Shown here: in pieces, positions 44,750-64,000 of the stretch
How positions within the stretch are numbered: the stretch's first letter is position 1
Layout: each line of letters opens with the position of its first letter
From: Bradyrhizobium sp. ORS 278
GTDB lineage: Bacteria > Pseudomonadota > Alphaproteobacteria > Rhizobiales > Xanthobacteraceae
Assembly: GCF_000026145.1 (NCBI RefSeq)
Contig: NC_009445.1
Location: forward strand, 2,604,001-2,668,000
Direction: 5' to 3'
Length of the DNA: 64,000 bases
Position numbers and translations under genes: made by a program
Notes under the pieces: generated by a model
Databases searched by the model: none
Told to the model about the DNA's origin: nothing
The model's input: only the letters and a program-made list of their open reading frames with translations

Positions 44750-45246
44750 TGACGGCCCTGGCTGTGACGCATCGCAGGCGTGATCGAGGCGGCGAATATG
44801 TGCTCCTATCAGCGGCCTCATGGTTCGAGACGCGCCTACGGCGTTTCCGTTACTCGACGCGGAGACCCCAGGGCTGCACGTCGGGCAAATCAGGTCGCGC
44901 GCGAAATTCCTGTCCAGCCCTCTGCTGAAAAATAAATTGCTTGGCGACTTCGCAAAATCAGCATTACTCTTCCGCCCATTCCGTTGCGTCGGAGGGGGCG
45001 TATCGCGGTCGTCATGGACGTCGGCAGCGGAATGCGGTGGGCGTGGGTCGTTGCAGCGTGATCTTTCGCGCCGACGAACAGCGATGCACGCACGGTCAAG
45101 TCGCGCGGTCCTGGCACCCCGAAGCTGGTGTCACGCCTGTGCCGGCGCTCACGCGCCGCGCAGGCCACGGTGGCCAAAAGCCGGCGCACCGGGGAGAACG
45201 CGAAGCAGCCGTCAAAACCATCGCGCAGGGAAGGCCGGACGTGTTC

Positions 45247-45390
45247 GGCCAGACCTGTGGTACCTGCCGCCTGCATTCTTTTCCGCAGGCGGGCCACGGG
45301 CGCGGCCAGCGCCCGGCCTTCCCTGCGCCCTCTGTTTGTTGAGGGCGATGCTGGATCAAAGCTCGGGCGCAAGACGCGTCGCGAGATCGC
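45247..45390 (+). repeat. Dispersed structured element, copy A
   Basis: This segment matches, in inverted orientation, the last ~145 bases of the window. It contains hairpin 1 (GCCGCCTGC, 10-base loop, GCAGGCGGGC at 45266-45294) and hairpin 2 (GCCCTC, 8-base loop TGTTTGTT, GAGGGC at 45327-45346). Between them lies the GCGGCCAGCGCCCGGC block, which is shared by both copies. The element may extend left to about 44.9 kb, which cannot be tested here. It is probably non-coding. Confidence 0.75.
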
Positions 45391-45455
45391 GAAGCTGTAT
45401 TCTCATGCATCAGAAAATACTGTTGGACGAACGTGAGCACGGCAGAGACCACAGT

Positions 45456-45542
45456 CGTCATTGCGAGCGCAGCGACGCAATCCAGGATCTTCCCGCGGAT
45501 GCACTCTGGATTGCTTCGTCGCTGCGCGCCTCGCAACGACGG
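45456..45542. repeat. Dispersed palindrome, GTCATTGCGAG type (copy 3)
   Basis: GTCATTGCGAGCGCAGCGAC then GCAATCCAGGAT is mirrored by TCTGGATTGCTTCGTCGCTG and CTCGCAACGACGG. Confidence 0.88.
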
Positions 45543-45578
45543 AGATCCTGGTGGGCGTCTCGTTTCAACAAGCACGGT

Positions 45579-45699
45579 GTCGTCCCGGCGAACGCCGGGA
45601 CCCATAATCCCAGGGAGATGTTGTTGCGCACGATGTCGGCCCAGTCTTGTCTCACCACACCTGCTGCGGAGTATGGGTCCCGGCGTTCGCCGGGACGAC
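45579..45699. repeat. Dispersed palindrome, GTCGTCCCGGCGAACGCC type
   Basis: GTCGTCCCGGCGAACGCCGG then GACCCATAAT is mirrored by TATGGGTCCCGGCGTTCGCC then GGGACGAC, around a loop of about 65 bases. It lies just beyond the Lrp regulator's stop codon. Confidence 0.88.
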
Positions 45700-45725
45700 G
45701 GTGGGGCGTGGCGAGGCGGCGTGGC

Positions 45726-46187
45726 TCACACCGGAAGTGCGATCGAGTACTTGACCTGGCTCAGGGCAAAACTCGACTCGATCGAGGCGATGCCGTCGAG
45801 CCGCGTCAGCTTGGTCTTCAGGAATGCCTCATACGACGACAGGTCCGCCGCGACCACGCGCAGCATGTAGTCGCGATTGCCCGTCATCAGATAGCACTCC
45901 AGCACCTCGGGCCAGGCCGAGATCGCCTTCTCGAAGCGCTTCAGGTCCTCCTCCTTCTGCCGGGCCAGCTTGATGGAGATGAACACCGAGACGTGCAGCC
46001 CGAGCGCCTTCTGGTTGACGGTGGCGATGTAGCGGGTGATGACGCCGCGCTCCTCCAGGAGCTTCACCCGGCGGTGGCAGGGCGAGACGGAGAGGCCGAC
46101 CTTGTCGGCGAGCTCCTGCATGGTGATGCGGCCGTCGGCCTGGAGGTGGCCGAGGATCTTGCGGTCGATGACGTCGAGTTCGGGCAT
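45726..46187 (-). CDS. Lrp/AsnC-family transcriptional regulator
   Basis: A 153-residue regulator. The N-terminal helix-turn-helix (LDVIDRKILGHLQADGRITM then QELADKVGLSVSPCHRRVKL) is followed by the RAM ligand-binding domain (VEVLECYLMTGNRDYMLRV-like segment at about 95-115). It is divergent from the E1-type dehydrogenase gene. In Pseudomonas putida an Lrp-type regulator (MdeR) governs a similar E1 gene (mdeB), so control of the neighbour by an amino acid is a reasonable inference. Confidence 0.92.
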   Translation of the reverse strand: MPELDVIDRKILGHLQADGRITMQELADKVGLSVSPCHRRVKLLEERGVITRYIATVNQKALGLHVSVFISIKLARQKEEDLKRFEKAISAWPEVLECYLMTGNRDYMLRVVAADLSSYEAFLKTKLTRLDGIASIESSFALSQVKYSIALPV

Positions 46188-46330
46188 TGGGATGCTGTGC
46201 CGGGATTGATAGCTCTGACGGGAAAATATCCCAATAATGTTCGCCCATGCGCGAAAAATTGAGAATTATGGCCAGCTCGACGGGACTAGAGTCAACGAAT
46301 CCACCGAACCGCCCCTGGGAGCAGCGCGCC

Positions 46331-48715
46331 ATGGCCAGGCCACCCGCATCAACGCCATCCGCATCGTCAGACCGTCTCGCTATCCTGAACGCGCTGACCC
46401 GCAAGGCCCTGTGGCTGTCGTCTTGGACGATTCATCACGCCAACCACATCCGGCCGAACATCGACGGCCTCAAGGTCGGCGGCCACCAGGCGTCCTCCGC
46501 GTCGCTCGCGACCATCATGTCGGCGCTTTACTTCTCGGTGCTGCGCCCAGAGGATCGCGTCGCGGTGAAGCCGCATGCGAGCCCGGTCTTCCATGCCATC
46601 CAATATCTGTTCGGACGGCAGACCAAGGAGAAGCTGGAGAATTTCCGCGGCTTCAAGGGCGCGCAGTCCTATCCGTCGCGCACCAAGGACGTCGACGATG
46701 TCGACTTCTCGACCGGCTCGGTCGGCCTCGGCGTCGCGCAGACGCTGTTCTCCTCGCTGGTGCAGGACTACGTCAAGACGCATGGCTGGATGAAGGATCG
46801 CCGCGAGGGTCGCATGATCGCGCTGGTCGGCGACGCCGAGATGGACGAAGGCAACATCTTCGAGGCGCTGGCCGAGGGCTGGAAGCACGGCCTGCGCAAC
46901 ACCTGGTGGATCGTCGACTACAACCGCCAGAGCCTGGATGCCGTGGTGCGCGAGGGGCTGTGGGAGAAGTTCGAGACCATGTTCCGCAACTTCGGCTGGG
47001 ACGTGGTGATCGTGAAATACGGCCGGCTGATGCGCGAGGCCTTTGCCGAGCCCGGCGGCGAGTCGCTCAGGCGCTGGATCGACAACTGCCCGAACGCGCT
47101 GTACGCGGCGCTGTGCTTTCAGGGCGGGGCGGCGTTCCGCAAGCACATCCAGGACGAGATCGGCGACCAGGGCGACGTGACCCGGCTCCTCGATAATCGC
47201 AGCGACGACGAGCTGCTGGCGCTGATGAGCAATCTCGGCGGCCACGACATGGCGAGCATGCTGGAGGCGTTCGAACAGATCGACCACGATCGCCCCGTCT
47301 GCTTCATCGCCTACACGATCAAGGGCGTCGGCCTGCCGTTCCAGGGCCACAAGGACAACCACGCCGGGCTGATGACGGTCGCGCAGATGGAGAAATGGCG
47401 CGCCGAGCAGAACATCCGTCCGGGCCATGAGTGGGACAAGTTCGAAGGCCTGACGCAGGACCCGGCGACGCTTGAAGCGTTTCTGGCCTCCGTGCCGTTC
47501 AACCGCGACGGCCGCCGGCTCGACGACGCCGTGCTCGACGTACCGGAGCGGCTGACCTTCACCGCGGCCGCGCAGATGTCGACGCAGCAGGGCTTCGGCT
47601 TGATCCTTAACGATCTCGCCCGCAGCGACATCGCGATGGCGTCGCGGATCGTGACCTCGTCGCCCGACGTCACCGTCTCGACCAATCTGGGCGCGTGGGT
47701 CAACCGGCGCGGCCTGTTCGCGCATGCCGAGAAGGCCGACCTGTTCCGCAGCGAGAAGATCCCCTCGACCTTCAACTGGGCGGCCTCGCCCAAGGGGCAG
47801 CACATCGAGCTCGGCATCGCCGAGATGAATCTGTTCATCATGGCCTCGGCGCTCGGCCTGTCGCACTCCATCAACGGCGCGCGGCTGCTGCCGATCGTCA
47901 CGCTGTACGATCCGTTCATCGAGCGCGGCCTCGATGCGCTGAACTACGCCTGCTATCAGGACGCGCGCTTCATGGTCGTCGCGACCCCGTCGGGCGTCAC
48001 GCTGGCGCCGGAGGGCGGCGCGCACCAGTCGATCGCGACGCCACTGATCGGCATGGCGCAGGACGGCTTGTCCTCGTTCGAGCCGGCCTTCGTCGACGAG
48101 CTCGCGGCGATCATGAAATGGGGCTTTGGCCACATGCAGGCCGCGCCGGGCGAGGGCGGCTCGGTCTATTTGCGGCTATCGACGCGCACCGTCGACCAGC
48201 CGCAGCGGATCATGACGCCGGAGCTGGAGGCCGACATCGCCGCCGGCGCCTATTGGCTGCGCAAGCCGGGGCCGAATGCAGAAGTGATCATTGCCTATAC
48301 CGGCGCGCTCGCGCCTGAGGCGATCGAGGCGACCGGATTAATCGGCGAATCCCGCCGCGACGTCGGCCTGCTCGCCGTCACCTCGGCGGACCGGCTGCAT
48401 GCCGGATGGACGGCGGCGCGCAGCCTGCGCAGGCATCGCCGCGGCGTGCAGCATCTCAGCCATATCGAGCAATTGCTGGCGCCGCTGCCGCGCGACTGCG
48501 GAATCGTCACCGTCATCGACGGCCATCCGGCGGCGCTCGGCTGGCTAGGCTCGGTGCGCGGCCATCGCGTCGAGGCGCTGGGGGTCGAGAAGTTCGGTCA
48601 GACCGGCACGATCGACGATCTCTACCGTCATAACGGCATGGACGCGAATGCCATCATCGACGCGGCCGAGAGCCTGACCGGCGCGCCGGTGCGGCACCGC
48701 AAGATGGCGGTGTGA
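46331..48715 (+). CDS. Homodimeric 2-oxoacid dehydrogenase E1 (AceE/MdeB-like, transketolase fold)
   Basis: A 794-residue thiamine-diphosphate enzyme. The N-terminal ThDP domain has RPNIDGLKVGGHQASSASLA and the cofactor motif GDAEMDEGNIFEALAEGWKH ... NTWWIVDYNRQSLD. The central pyrimidine domain includes KGQHIELGIAEMNLFIMASA, and a transketolase C-terminal domain follows. It is shorter than AceE (about 890). No E2/E3 genes are adjacent. With the divergent Lrp regulator it resembles MdeB, an alpha-ketobutyrate-preferring E1, but pyruvate cannot be excluded. The ATG at 46331 has GGGAG upstream; in-frame ATGs at 46247 and 46268 are alternatives. Confidence 0.87.
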   Translation: MARPPASTPSASSDRLAILNALTRKALWLSSWTIHHANHIRPNIDGLKVGGHQASSASLATIMSALYFSVLRPEDRVAVKPHASPVFHAIQYLFGRQTKEKLENFRGFKGAQSYPSRTKDVDDVDFSTGSVGLGVAQTLFSSLVQDYVKTHGWMKDRREGRMIALVGDAEMDEGNIFEALAEGWKHGLRNTWWIVDYNRQSLDAVVREGLWEKFETMFRNFGWDVVIVKYGRLMREAFAEPGGESLRRWIDNCPNALYAALCFQGGAAFRKHIQDEIGDQGDVTRLLDNRSDDELLALMSNLGGHDMASMLEAFEQIDHDRPVCFIAYTIKGVGLPFQGHKDNHAGLMTVAQMEKWRAEQNIRPGHEWDKFEGLTQDPATLEAFLASVPFNRDGRRLDDAVLDVPERLTFTAAAQMSTQQGFGLILNDLARSDIAMASRIVTSSPDVTVSTNLGAWVNRRGLFAHAEKADLFRSEKIPSTFNWAASPKGQHIELGIAEMNLFIMASALGLSHSINGARLLPIVTLYDPFIERGLDALNYACYQDARFMVVATPSGVTLAPEGGAHQSIATPLIGMAQDGLSSFEPAFVDELAAIMKWGFGHMQAAPGEGGSVYLRLSTRTVDQPQRIMTPELEADIAAGAYWLRKPGPNAEVIIAYTGALAPEAIEATGLIGESRRDVGLLAVTSADRLHAGWTAARSLRRHRRGVQHLSHIEQLLAPLPRDCGIVTVIDGHPAALGWLGSVRGHRVEALGVEKFGQTGTIDDLYRHNGMDANAIIDAAESLTGAPVRHRKMAV

Positions 48716-62239: not shown

Positions 62240-63780
62240 GTAACTGCCCAGGTCCCCGCTCGGTCAAGCGAGGCGGATTTTATGGGTGAGCTGTGTTGGG
62301 CATGCGGACAATGTTTCGAGCATGTTCCATCCGCGCTTTCGAGCGGTGCCGATCAAGGTACGTAGCGTTGCGAAGTTGTCCGCGCCTTGAGAGGTGCGAA
62401 AGCCGCCAGAGATCTTCTGCCGCAACTTCATCATGCGGGCATCGCGCTCGGCCTCGTTGTTGGTAAACGGCACCGCCGGGTTGCGCAGGAACAGTAGCAC
62501 TGCCTCTTTGTGCAGCTTGAGGCGCAGCAGGAGATTATGGCCGGTGCGCCGCCTGATCCGTCCGCGTTTGACATCGCGCGGCAGTGCGGGAAGCGCCTCG
62601 TGCCAGGCGATGCCGGCGCGGATGATACGGTCATACTTCCGCTCGGCGGTGCGGATTTTGGCGGGAGGCAGCGCACCTGTCTGGCCGGCTGGACGCTCCG
62701 GCGCCAGATTGACCTCATGGCACAGGTCTCGGAGCAGCGTACGCATGCGTCGAGCCCAGGCCTCGCCGTCGATGTCCACCAGCGCCGTCAGCTCGCGCAG
62801 ATGATGCGCATTGCACAGCGCATGCGTGACCCCCGGCATCTGAAAATAGGATGTCCAGTGGTCGTGCATCACGATATGCGCCGCTTGCGTCAGCACCTCG
62901 CCGCGCCTTTGGGACACGCGATAATGCACCAGCCCGTTGATCCCGGCGGTGCCCGCGACATGCAGCCATTGCGGCGTGGCACCCACCCAAAACCCGGTCT
63001 CATCCAGATGCTTGACCGGTGCTCCGCGGATCTCTTCGCAGACTGCCGCAGCGAAATCCCGCGTCCGACTGGCGGCACGGGCGATCATCTGCCCGATCGT
63101 GCCGGCCGAGACAGTCACGCCAAACAGATCGGTGAGGACCTGTCCCAAACGATCTTCAGGCAGGAACTGTCCAGCCGACAGATACGTCACCACGGCGGAC
63201 AACCGTGCGCCATATTGCGCTGGCGCCTTGACCTCCGTGGGAAACGTTCCCGTCGTGACTGCGCCACAGCCGCTGCATGTGCAACGATAGCGCTGATGCT
63301 CCGTGACGATCAGCGGCCTCGGCGCCGGCAGATCGAACACCTGACGGCTGTCGACAAAGTCCAACGGCTCCTCGCCCAGCGCCGCTTGGCAGCCTCTGCA
63401 CGTGGCGGGGCGATGGATGATTGTATGATCGACCTGGTCCGACCGCTTCAAGTGCTTGCCTGGATGACCTGGCTGGCCGCCGGGCTTCCTCACCCCTCGC
63501 TCGCGAAGGCTGCGTGTCCGGCGCGGACCCTGGCCCGGCCCATCGCTCGAAGGCGGTTTGCTGCTATTGGAGCTATCCAGACCAAGCCGGCGCTCCAGAT
63601 CGGCCACACGGGCCAACAGCAACGCGTTCTGCTGTTCCAGCATCAGGTTGCGCGCCTGCAACTCCCCAATCAGGGCCAGCAGCGAATCAACCGACAATGA
63701 GTGCGGTGGCTTCATCCATACCTTGACTCACAAACGCATGGGGTCAGTCAAGGGATGAGGTCGGGTACCTGGGCAGTTAC
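62240..63780 (-). mobile_element. IS66-family insertion sequence (single-ORF type)
   Basis: A 1541-bp complete element. Ends are perfect 14-bp inverted repeats, GTAACTGCCCAGGT at 62240-62253 and its complement at 63767-63780. It is flanked by the 8-bp direct repeat CGCTACGC (62232-62239 and 63781-63788). An 8-bp duplication and GTAA-type tips are the known hallmarks of IS66. Only the transposase gene is present; the tnpA and tnpB accessory genes of larger IS66 elements are absent, as in the ISBst12-like subgroup. Intact ends and the perfect duplication suggest a recent insertion. Confidence 0.95.
62264..63715 (-). CDS. IS66-family transposase (TnpC-like)
   Basis: A 483-residue transposase with the IS66 layout. 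An N-terminal leucine-zipper-like coiled coil (LIGELQARNLMLEQQNALLL) is followed by a charged SSKPPSSDGPGQ linker. A zinc-finger Cys block has CRGCQAALGEEP and CTCSGCGAV. The catalytic domain includes KHLDETGFWVGATPQWLHVA (Asp), HDHWTSYFQMPGVTHALCNA with HHLREL, and the late VPFTNNEAERDARMMKLRQK (Glu), so it is probably active. It begins shortly inside the right end of the IS. Confidence 0.94.
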   Translation of the reverse strand: MKPPHSLSVDSLLALIGELQARNLMLEQQNALLLARVADLERRLGLDSSNSSKPPSSDGPGQGPRRTRSLRERGVRKPGGQPGHPGKHLKRSDQVDHTIIHRPATCRGCQAALGEEPLDFVDSRQVFDLPAPRPLIVTEHQRYRCTCSGCGAVTTGTFPTEVKAPAQYGARLSAVVTYLSAGQFLPEDRLGQVLTDLFGVTVSAGTIGQMIARAASRTRDFAAAVCEEIRGAPVKHLDETGFWVGATPQWLHVAGTAGINGLVHYRVSQRRGEVLTQAAHIVMHDHWTSYFQMPGVTHALCNAHHLRELTALVDIDGEAWARRMRTLLRDLCHEVNLAPERPAGQTGALPPAKIRTAERKYDRIIRAGIAWHEALPALPRDVKRGRIRRRTGHNLLLRLKLHKEAVLLFLRNPAVPFTNNEAERDARMMKLRQKISGGFRTSQGADNFATLRTLIGTARKRGWNMLETLSACPTQLTHKIRLA

Positions 63781-63854
63781 CGCTACGCTCGCAATGACGG
63801 GGAGACTCGTTTTGGAGCGATCATACTCAAGCTGACGGTGGCGAGACATGCGGT

Positions 63855-64000
63855 CATCTTCTCGCGGCGCGTCTCGCGTCCGAGCCTTGCTCTTCGTCCT
63901 GCCCTCTCCGAGAAGAGGGCACGGGGAATGCCGGGCGCTGGCCGCACCCATGGCCCGCCTGCAGAAAGATAAGCAGGCGGCAGTCACCACAGGTTCAGCC
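63855..64000 (-). repeat. Dispersed structured element, copy B (cut by window end)
   Basis: Read on the minus strand, this segment parallels 45247-45390. It has the same hairpin 1 stem (GCCGCCTGC / GCAGGCGGGC, loop TTATCTTTCT) and the same hairpin 2 stem (GCCCTC / GAGGGC, loop TTCTCGGA). The GCGGCCAGCGCCCGGC block is also shared. It continues beyond the window. No open frame here looks like a gene. Confidence 0.75.

Follow-up and report, generated by a model that had tools for sequence, protein, structure and literature searches.

A dispersed half-kilobase element of Bradyrhizobium with a predicted RNA fold and one-sided spacing of its copies

At least 121 full copies of an element of about half a kilobase are dispersed through the genome of Bradyrhizobium sp. 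ORS 278, every one scoring at least 111.9 bits with a covariance model derived from 30 of the copies. We read the element, with somewhat more conviction than doubt, as a long-lived, non-autonomous mobile family of about 0.5 kb whose RNA fold is kept in place and whose copies exclude one another on the 5' side only. What is new is that the spacing is one-sided: the pattern is plain in the high-copy genomes, and from it we infer a cause. Two of the copies fall in the window, by which we mean the whole stretch of 64,000 nucleotides analysed here (positions 2,604,001-2,668,000 of the single contig of 7,456,587 bases). A preliminary description had pointed out these two homologous copies; the stems and loop pairs that it quoted are as written, and the copies are 80% alike over 187 bases (E 2.9e-40). 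It had also suspected a widely copied non-coding element, which the genome-wide count bears out, and the same count disposes of its own reservation that only two copies might exist.

Extent and predicted fold of the element

How large is the element? The preliminary description had given it 144 bp (45247-45390). The homology of that stretch stands, but it is not the whole element: comparison of copies extends copy 1 to about 44,880-45,404, some 0.5 kb, of which the 144-bp stretch is the 3' third. Against the closest copy, homology begins at 44,878; against 29 further copies it runs from about 44,984 to about 45,398, and at least two versions of the 5' part occur among the copies. The copied unit of about 510 bp is delimited by three alike copies (L012, L013 and L017), whose likeness runs from about 310 nt before the start of the core (45200 in copy 1) to about 200 nt after it. 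Copy 2 is cut by the end of the window: its core match (contig 2667863-2668047, - strand) ends 47 bases past the window, and its homology continues to about contig 2,668,256, some 256 bases past it. The two window copies form a convergent pair 18.7 kb apart. Their features are collected in Table 1.

Table 1. Coordinates of the element and its predicted parts in the window
Feature	Position in window	Strand	Basis or remark
Whole element (copied unit), copy 1	44880..45404, edges approximate	+	Homology to closest copy; comparison of L012, L013 and L017
Weak promoter-like signal, CTTGGC-N17-ATTACT, directly upstream of the folded part	44940..44968	+	Read from sequence
5' hairpin domain, helices 1-3	44979..45032	+	Predicted consensus fold
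Multibranch domain, helices 4-12	45034..45224	+	Predicted consensus fold; closing stem 45034-45040/45218-45224
Long hairpin	45225..45326	+	Predicted consensus fold; outer stem 45225-45238/45313-45326
Inner stems of the long hairpin	45254-45261/45293-45300 and 45267-45274/45285-45292	+	The latter is the first stem of the preliminary description
Short hairpin, CCCTC/GAGGG	45328..45345	+	Predicted consensus fold; second stem of the preliminary description
3' hairpin, CTCGGGCGC/GCGTCGCGAG	45362..45385	+	Predicted consensus fold
Copy 2, 3' part only, cut by window end	63845..64000, low edge approximate	-	Covariance-model core match

The consensus fold predicted by RNAalifold from 30 copies has 18 helices and 112 pairs, with 96.2% of cells paired; 51 pairs show a compensated change, against 31 in shuffles, and most of these fall in the multibranch domain. 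Cells changed on both sides number 264, against 87 after shuffling and at most 75 when partners were slid, and the covariation score is 0.308, against 0.162 and at most 0.091, respectively. The consensus structure was derived from the same 30 copies, so that the slid-partner control leans in its favour. None of 500 shuffles scored as high on any of five covariation measures, though kinship by itself can lift unstructured sequences above their shuffles, an effect that is weaker for pair-counting measures. The window copy has a more stable fold than its own shuffles (z -4.8 over 417 nt and -5.45 over 186 nt). The two stems first described are 2 of 18 predicted helices; among the 16 missed is the outer stem of the long hairpin, around which mismatch-free 15-mer arms lie at 45223-45237 and 45314-45328.

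The identity of the stems in both window copies, noted earlier, is real. The GCCGCCTGC/GCAGGCGGGC stem is invariant in all 30 copies and thus by itself carries no covariation there. A pattern that could read 93 of 110 ORS 278 and G112 copies (17 were unreadable) found this stem in 73; the 20 that differ have, by eye, mostly alternative apical stems that are still complementary. These counts leave out G237, in which 57 of 60 copies escaped a strict regular-expression pattern of the apical stem. The equal loop lengths remarked upon hold between the two window copies and not across the 30.

Is the folded molecule RNA or DNA? The preliminary description had allowed either, and spoken against protein. 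The 111 pairs of 30 copies include 372 G.T cells, against 19 A.C cells and 102 with other mismatches, a count with some circularity since the structure model itself permits G.U. The + strand is the lower in folding energy in 30 of 30 ORS 278 copies and 80 of 80 G112 copies, against just 102 of 220 flanking windows. Because of compensation, the bias of G.T over A.C and this strand-specific stability, RNA is now preferable to DNA, and selection most likely acts on the element as RNA. The hallmark of a structured non-coding RNA, compensatory base changes on one strand, is present. Rfam 15, group II introns included, gave no match at the gathering threshold anywhere in the window; a relaxed threshold gave six matches near the element, all far below threshold (five microRNA families and one tRNA-like-structure pseudoknot).

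A protein-coding gene was considered and rejected. An open frame spans the 395-nt core on one strand in 20 of 110 copies and on the other strand in 37, so that the conserved protein frame that would have told against the first reading is not seen; together with the compensation, the scarcity of open frames supports selection or copying for a folded nucleic acid. The ORFs overlapping the element match no Pfam or NCBIfam family. One of them has 60 patchy database relatives, all predictions of 73-233 residues, which suggests that some Bradyrhizobium 'hypothetical proteins' are translations of this element.

Signals for transcription were sought as well. Of 53 readable G237 copies, 14 have a sigma-70-like signal of at least 9/12 before the fold, and none of the 53 has one on the reverse strand; for ORS 278 (2 of 30) and G112 (4 of 62) copies the means equal those of shuffles. 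A consensus promoter scan returned none at the promoter-like signal of the window copy. No terminator-like site was found at the element, nor a terminator-like T-run at its 3' hairpin.

All of 110 copies examined are intergenic, at median distances of 334 and 300 bases from genes called with a home-made gene caller. The window copy is antisense to both neighbouring genes. An Lrp/AsnC-type regulator gene (45726-46187, -) adjoins copy 1, with a pyruvate dehydrogenase E1-like gene nearby (46247-48715, +). Directly 3' of copy 1 lie palindromic repeats that we take for CGTC-type REPs (45451-45720), including a 46-nt inverted pair (45579-45624/45654-45699). An IS66-family transposase gene (Pfam DDE_Tnp_IS66; 62264-63715, -) starts about 140 nt 3' of copy 2.

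Distribution, copying and change at fixed sites

The best 150 candidates were scored in each genome, so that copy numbers are lower bounds where almost all of these gave a match, namely in ORS 278 and in the related genomes G112 (at least 127), G262 (at least 134) and G237 (at least 88). The low-copy genomes hold 44 (G005, where two models agree), 17 (G021) and 6 copies (G009, with model R1 only). Rows dropped before these counts were antisense echoes and a few weak partial matches far below the copies in score: 21 of 148 in G112, 16 of 150 in G262, 61 of 149 in G237, 13 of 57 and 44 of 88 in G005, 19 of 36 in G021 and 2 of 8 in G009. For ORS 278, where the 150 were chosen from 6,336 first-look candidates, the 28 of 149 rows dropped, all scoring at most 50.6, are antisense echoes located where the copies themselves lie.

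With a DNA query, 259 of 265 genomes of the genus give a match, ORS 278 included. A broader model was applied to the family with strict filters, the best 8 candidates of each genome being scored; it has matches in 158 of 296 genomes, those of Bradyrhizobium counted, and in 24 of 47 genera. Among 80 matching records listed, all belong to Bradyrhizobium apart from one 'Bradyrhizobiaceae' MAG and one contig of a Reyranella MAG (L203, JAUXWB010000242.1); the latter may be misbinned or transferred. A plasmid search with the window copy gave zero matches, and one with a G237 copy a single record, matching 20% of the query.

L012, L013 and L017 are 92-94% alike at three unlinked sites, which indicates copying. 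No target-site duplication is visible by eye at these three, and no inverted repeat joins the ends of the unit in them or in the window copy. A site filled in G112 (L093) is empty in Bradyrhizobium sp. MOS003 (L202, 7542-7623), with 81 bases between the two genes, and is too diverged there for exact insertion edges to be placed. MOS003 has a copy about 3 kb from the empty site, beyond the neighbouring gene and in opposite orientation. The gene on the right flank of L129 (G112) lies inverted on the left flank of L257 (G237); the element seems to occupy the same gap in opposite orientation.

What happens to a copy once it has settled? Of 30 ORS 278 copies, 21 have a counterpart with the same flank among the 80 of at least 127 G112 copies compared, 10 of them by both flanks. 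One copy, L024, matches two G112 copies by its flanks; the pairing with L120, supported by the tree, was kept and that with L072 omitted before counts. At the 21 orthologous sites, paired positions differ by 7.8% and unpaired positions by 18.1%. Pair-preserving double changes come to 50, against 5.5 expected (pairs non-standard in the ORS 278 copy are omitted; an earlier count of pairs, 62 and 14 broken, includes them), and one-sided changes that break a pair number 37, against 131 expected. Pair-breaking double changes likewise exceed expectation (12 against 6.5); the 148 one-sided changes that leave the pair intact do not (153.8 expected). The preliminary description would have been overturned by uncompensated stem changes; compensation is found both in the 30-copy fold and at these 21 sites. 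By this compensation in place, settled copies are shown to be kept for their fold, most likely as an RNA.

Gene conversion between copies could bring in ready-made stems. L078 and L079 are mosaic and alike locally (97.7% over 217 bases only), and four adjacent pairs have changed together in L023. The orthologue, however, is nearer than the rest of the 80 G112 copies in 15 of 21 cases, and nearer than any of the other 29 sampled ORS 278 copies in 18 of 21; exchange between copies may therefore exist, but does not dominate.

Spacing of the copies

In ORS 278 the mean gap between copies is 61.6 kb with a CV of 0.53, against 0.99 at random, and none of 20,000 random sets was as low. Median gaps are 22 kb for convergent neighbours (3' ends facing), 76 kb for divergent ones and 65-68 kb for those on the same strand. 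Strand permutations as extreme numbered 0 of 20,000 in each of ORS 278, G112, G262 and G237, rounded genome lengths being used for the last three. With exact lengths, gaps below 30 kb in these four high-copy genomes make up 61 of 118 convergent, 24 of 234 same-strand and 0 of 118 divergent gaps; the smallest divergent gaps are 37.6, 43.3, 34.1 and 48.1 kb. Copies are also even in G112 (CV 0.69) and G262 (CV 0.75), with random sets as low in 0 and 4 of 20,000. G237 is even over 0-5.58 Mb (CV 0.54) and not over the whole genome (CV 1.15), because a block of about 1.4 Mb, set aside after it had been seen, holds a single copy; a gap of 929 kb between copies is tolerated in this genome. The block (5.58-7.01 Mb) is perhaps a symbiosis island. 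With its 44 copies, G005 is not evenly spaced (CV 0.92 against 0.97 at random) and has a modest orientation effect (permutation 0.014); the 17 copies of G021 show no spacing effect (CV 1.22, permutation 0.62).

A simple model, in which places and strands are random and no copy is allowed within 45 kb 5' of another, with a 2% leak, was compared with these counts. For ORS 278 it gives a CV of 0.57 against 0.53 observed, 20.6 convergent gaps below 30 kb against 19, and median gaps within about 30% of those seen, and it over-predicts convergent pairs (39 against 32). At 45 kb it fits less well in G112, run with its exact length (CV 0.59 against 0.69), and in G262 (0.57 against 0.75), where 12 same-strand gaps below 30 kb are seen against about 2 predicted.

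On how many independent arrangements does this rest? Of 40 sampled G262 copies, 26 share positions with the 80 G112 copies, whereas 8 of 60 G237 copies (11 pairings, all by the 3' flank) share a position with the 110 from ORS 278 or G112, and 8 of the 40 G262 copies share a flank with G237, one of them through a repeated gene. As ORS 278, G112 and G262 have many positions in common, the evidence for the spacing comes from about two arrangements, theirs and that of G237, which we judge from its few shared positions and the lower likeness of its copies to be probably a separate group of the genus. The convergent pairing of copy 1 (L001) is preserved in three other genomes, its orthologue there facing a partner across 19.9 kb in G112 (L096 and L095), 17.0 kb in G262 (L328 and L327) and 15.0 kb in G237 (L285 and L286). 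Copy 2 (L019) has no flank match among the G112 copies compared, and its orthology thus rests on place and orientation.

Several causes of the spacing were tried and rejected. With local hopping, similar copies would be neighbours; the most similar copies are not neighbours in the samples from ORS 278 (30) or G237 (60). Among 80 copies of G112 similar copies are modestly nearer (median 0.99 against 1.58 Mb; 23 of 5,000), partly through a series of four successive, closely alike copies on the same strand at steps of 43-47 kb (1584422-1717392, L076-L079), which look like a serial amplification with the exclusion distance as its step. Orientation to replication is marked only in G005 and G021: with the origin assumed at 0, 73% and 76% of copies, respectively, are co-oriented with replication, and the best split was reached in 8 of 1,000 permutations of G005, the one of the two that was permuted. 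It is no better than permutation in ORS 278 (276 of 300), G112 (65 of 300) and G262 (157 of 300) and mildly above it in G237 (11 of 300). Gene orientation gives no rule on the 5' side, where the neighbour is co-oriented with the element in 54 of the 102 copies having a called 5' gene, and a mild excess on the 3' side, where 66 of 108 genes face the element.

Explanations, known systems and meaning

How might such a pattern arise? In the reading that we favour, the working part would be a folded RNA of about 410 nt, transcribed from the + strand. New copies would land in intergenic DNA far from the parent, probably through an enzyme acting in trans, and a settled copy would then be kept for its RNA fold. 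Each copy would disfavour others for some 45 kb in the 5' direction and not in the 3' direction, as the gap counts display, either through a one-sided transposition immunity or through loss of copies from a stretch that is already served.

The main rival, to our minds unlikely, is that of a domesticated chromosome-architecture RNA that would stay near its gene and fold or anchor the nucleoid, selection then favouring copies set at intervals and with a polarity. Orientation-dependent loop anchors exist in eukaryotes, and the regular, polar spacing, the selection of the fold in place and the positions partly kept across genomes would all suit such a role, as would the co-orientation with replication in G005 and G021, if the origin lies at 0. 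A bacterial precedent is naRNA4 of E. coli (PMC6907758). Complete genomes of the same genus make do with just 6 (G009) or 17 (G021) copies, however, which together with the 929-kb gap of G237 argues against a general need for the element, and the orientation by replichore is like permutation in ORS 278, G112 and G262 and mild in G237. It is also improbable that the hairpins matter as DNA, in the manner of REP or BIME palindromes that form cruciforms or serve as gyrase or IHF targets. The palindromes are strong and presumed CGTC-type REPs adjoin the element, but neither a duplex nor a cruciform would be expected to show the asymmetry of G.T and A.C or the strand-specific stability, the conserved helices include many internal ones, and size and complexity differ from those of REPs (20-40 bp; PMC3733652). 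Compensation of this kind lacking an excess of G.U would have pointed to DNA; the excess is there.

We give scant credence to a neutral, decaying mobile repeat whose stems seem kept through recent shared ancestry or sequence exchange. Mosaic, locally alike copies such as L078 and L079 and the four pairs changed at once in L023 are what it would lead one to expect; at fixed sites, nevertheless, pairs are preserved between orthologues far more often than independent change would give, and the rate of change at paired sites is under half that at unpaired ones. Equally improbable is a cis-acting element in the mRNAs of neighbouring genes, be it attenuator, 3'-UTR stabiliser or terminator: the position of all 110 copies a few hundred bases from genes would fit it, but the 5' neighbour follows no rule of orientation and the window copy runs antisense to the genes on either side. 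Least probable of all is that recombination alone sets the spacing by deleting direct copies that lie too close. It would account for the long same-strand gaps, and cannot explain the contrast between convergent and divergent pairs; nor are opposite-strand neighbours recent inverted duplicates, as their mean identity is about that of all pairs (0.657 against 0.666 in G112, 0.742 against 0.733 in G237 and 0.675 against 0.670 in the ORS 278 samples).

Does the element belong to a known class? NEMIS/Correia, ERIC and RUP elements are likewise non-autonomous, dispersed, foldable and sometimes transcribed; they measure about 100-160 bp, and several have terminal inverted repeats, unlike the present element, which has no inverted repeat from end to end. 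A MITE with terminal inverted repeats was accordingly rejected for the window copy and the three alike copies. Target immunity in Tn7, Mu and Tn3 also keeps further copies away, over kilobases to tens of kilobases. We know of no transposition immunity that is one-sided; the exclusion seen here differs in being so, and no transposase is linked to it.

In Bradyrhizobium itself, Hahn et al. (2016; PMC5082802) describe Br-REP1 and Br-REP2 as dispersed, palindromic, intergenic repeats with RNA reads at example loci, and state (data not shown there) that Br-REP2 belongs to a larger element present in Nitrobacter, Oligotropha and Afipia as well. They resemble the element in genus, dispersal, palindromes and intergenic position; neither a 0.5-kb fold nor a spacing is given in the accessible part of that paper, and the consensus sequences printed there match nowhere in the window, even when up to 3 mismatches are allowed. 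The GTAG/CGTC REPs surveyed in Bradyrhizobium ORS278, BTAi1 and USDA110 (PMC3733652, 2013) are 20-40 bp hairpins, high-copy, palindromic and intergenic like the element, and presumed CGTC repeats adjoin copy 1; an RNA of 18 helices or such spacing does not appear in the sections of that survey available. Membership in the REP/BIME class was rejected, given a unit of about 510 bp with 18 helices against a palindrome of 20-40 bp. In E. coli, naRNA4 of REP325 is a repeat-encoded nucleoid RNA that acts with HU (PMC6907758), a structured RNA from a repeat as here, where a nucleoid role would be a proposal by analogy; the available text does not describe it as a 120-copy family. As far as their accessible text goes, PMC5082802, PMC3733652, PMC12306157 and PMC6907758 have no description of the element or of such spacing. 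The same holds for the literature searched, which took in few subscription journals and no supplements, and an earlier notice may exist.

Dispersed bacterial repeats are usually taken as scattered debris. The element described here is most likely an RNA selected at fixed sites, and at the same time its copies are landmarks whose distances follow a directional rule. A bolder reading, which we put forward tentatively, is that about 120 half-kilobase RNA genes may partition the chromosome, each commanding about 45 kb upstream through directional immunity or as a mark of a domain; it includes the equally tentative claim that the rule may hold in two groups of the genus whose copies lie at mostly different positions. 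Which biology would lie behind it? If the rule arises by insertion, it would be a one-sided immunity of a kind unknown to us. If it arises by selection, the element would mark functional stretches of the chromosome and offer a sequence handle on their size.
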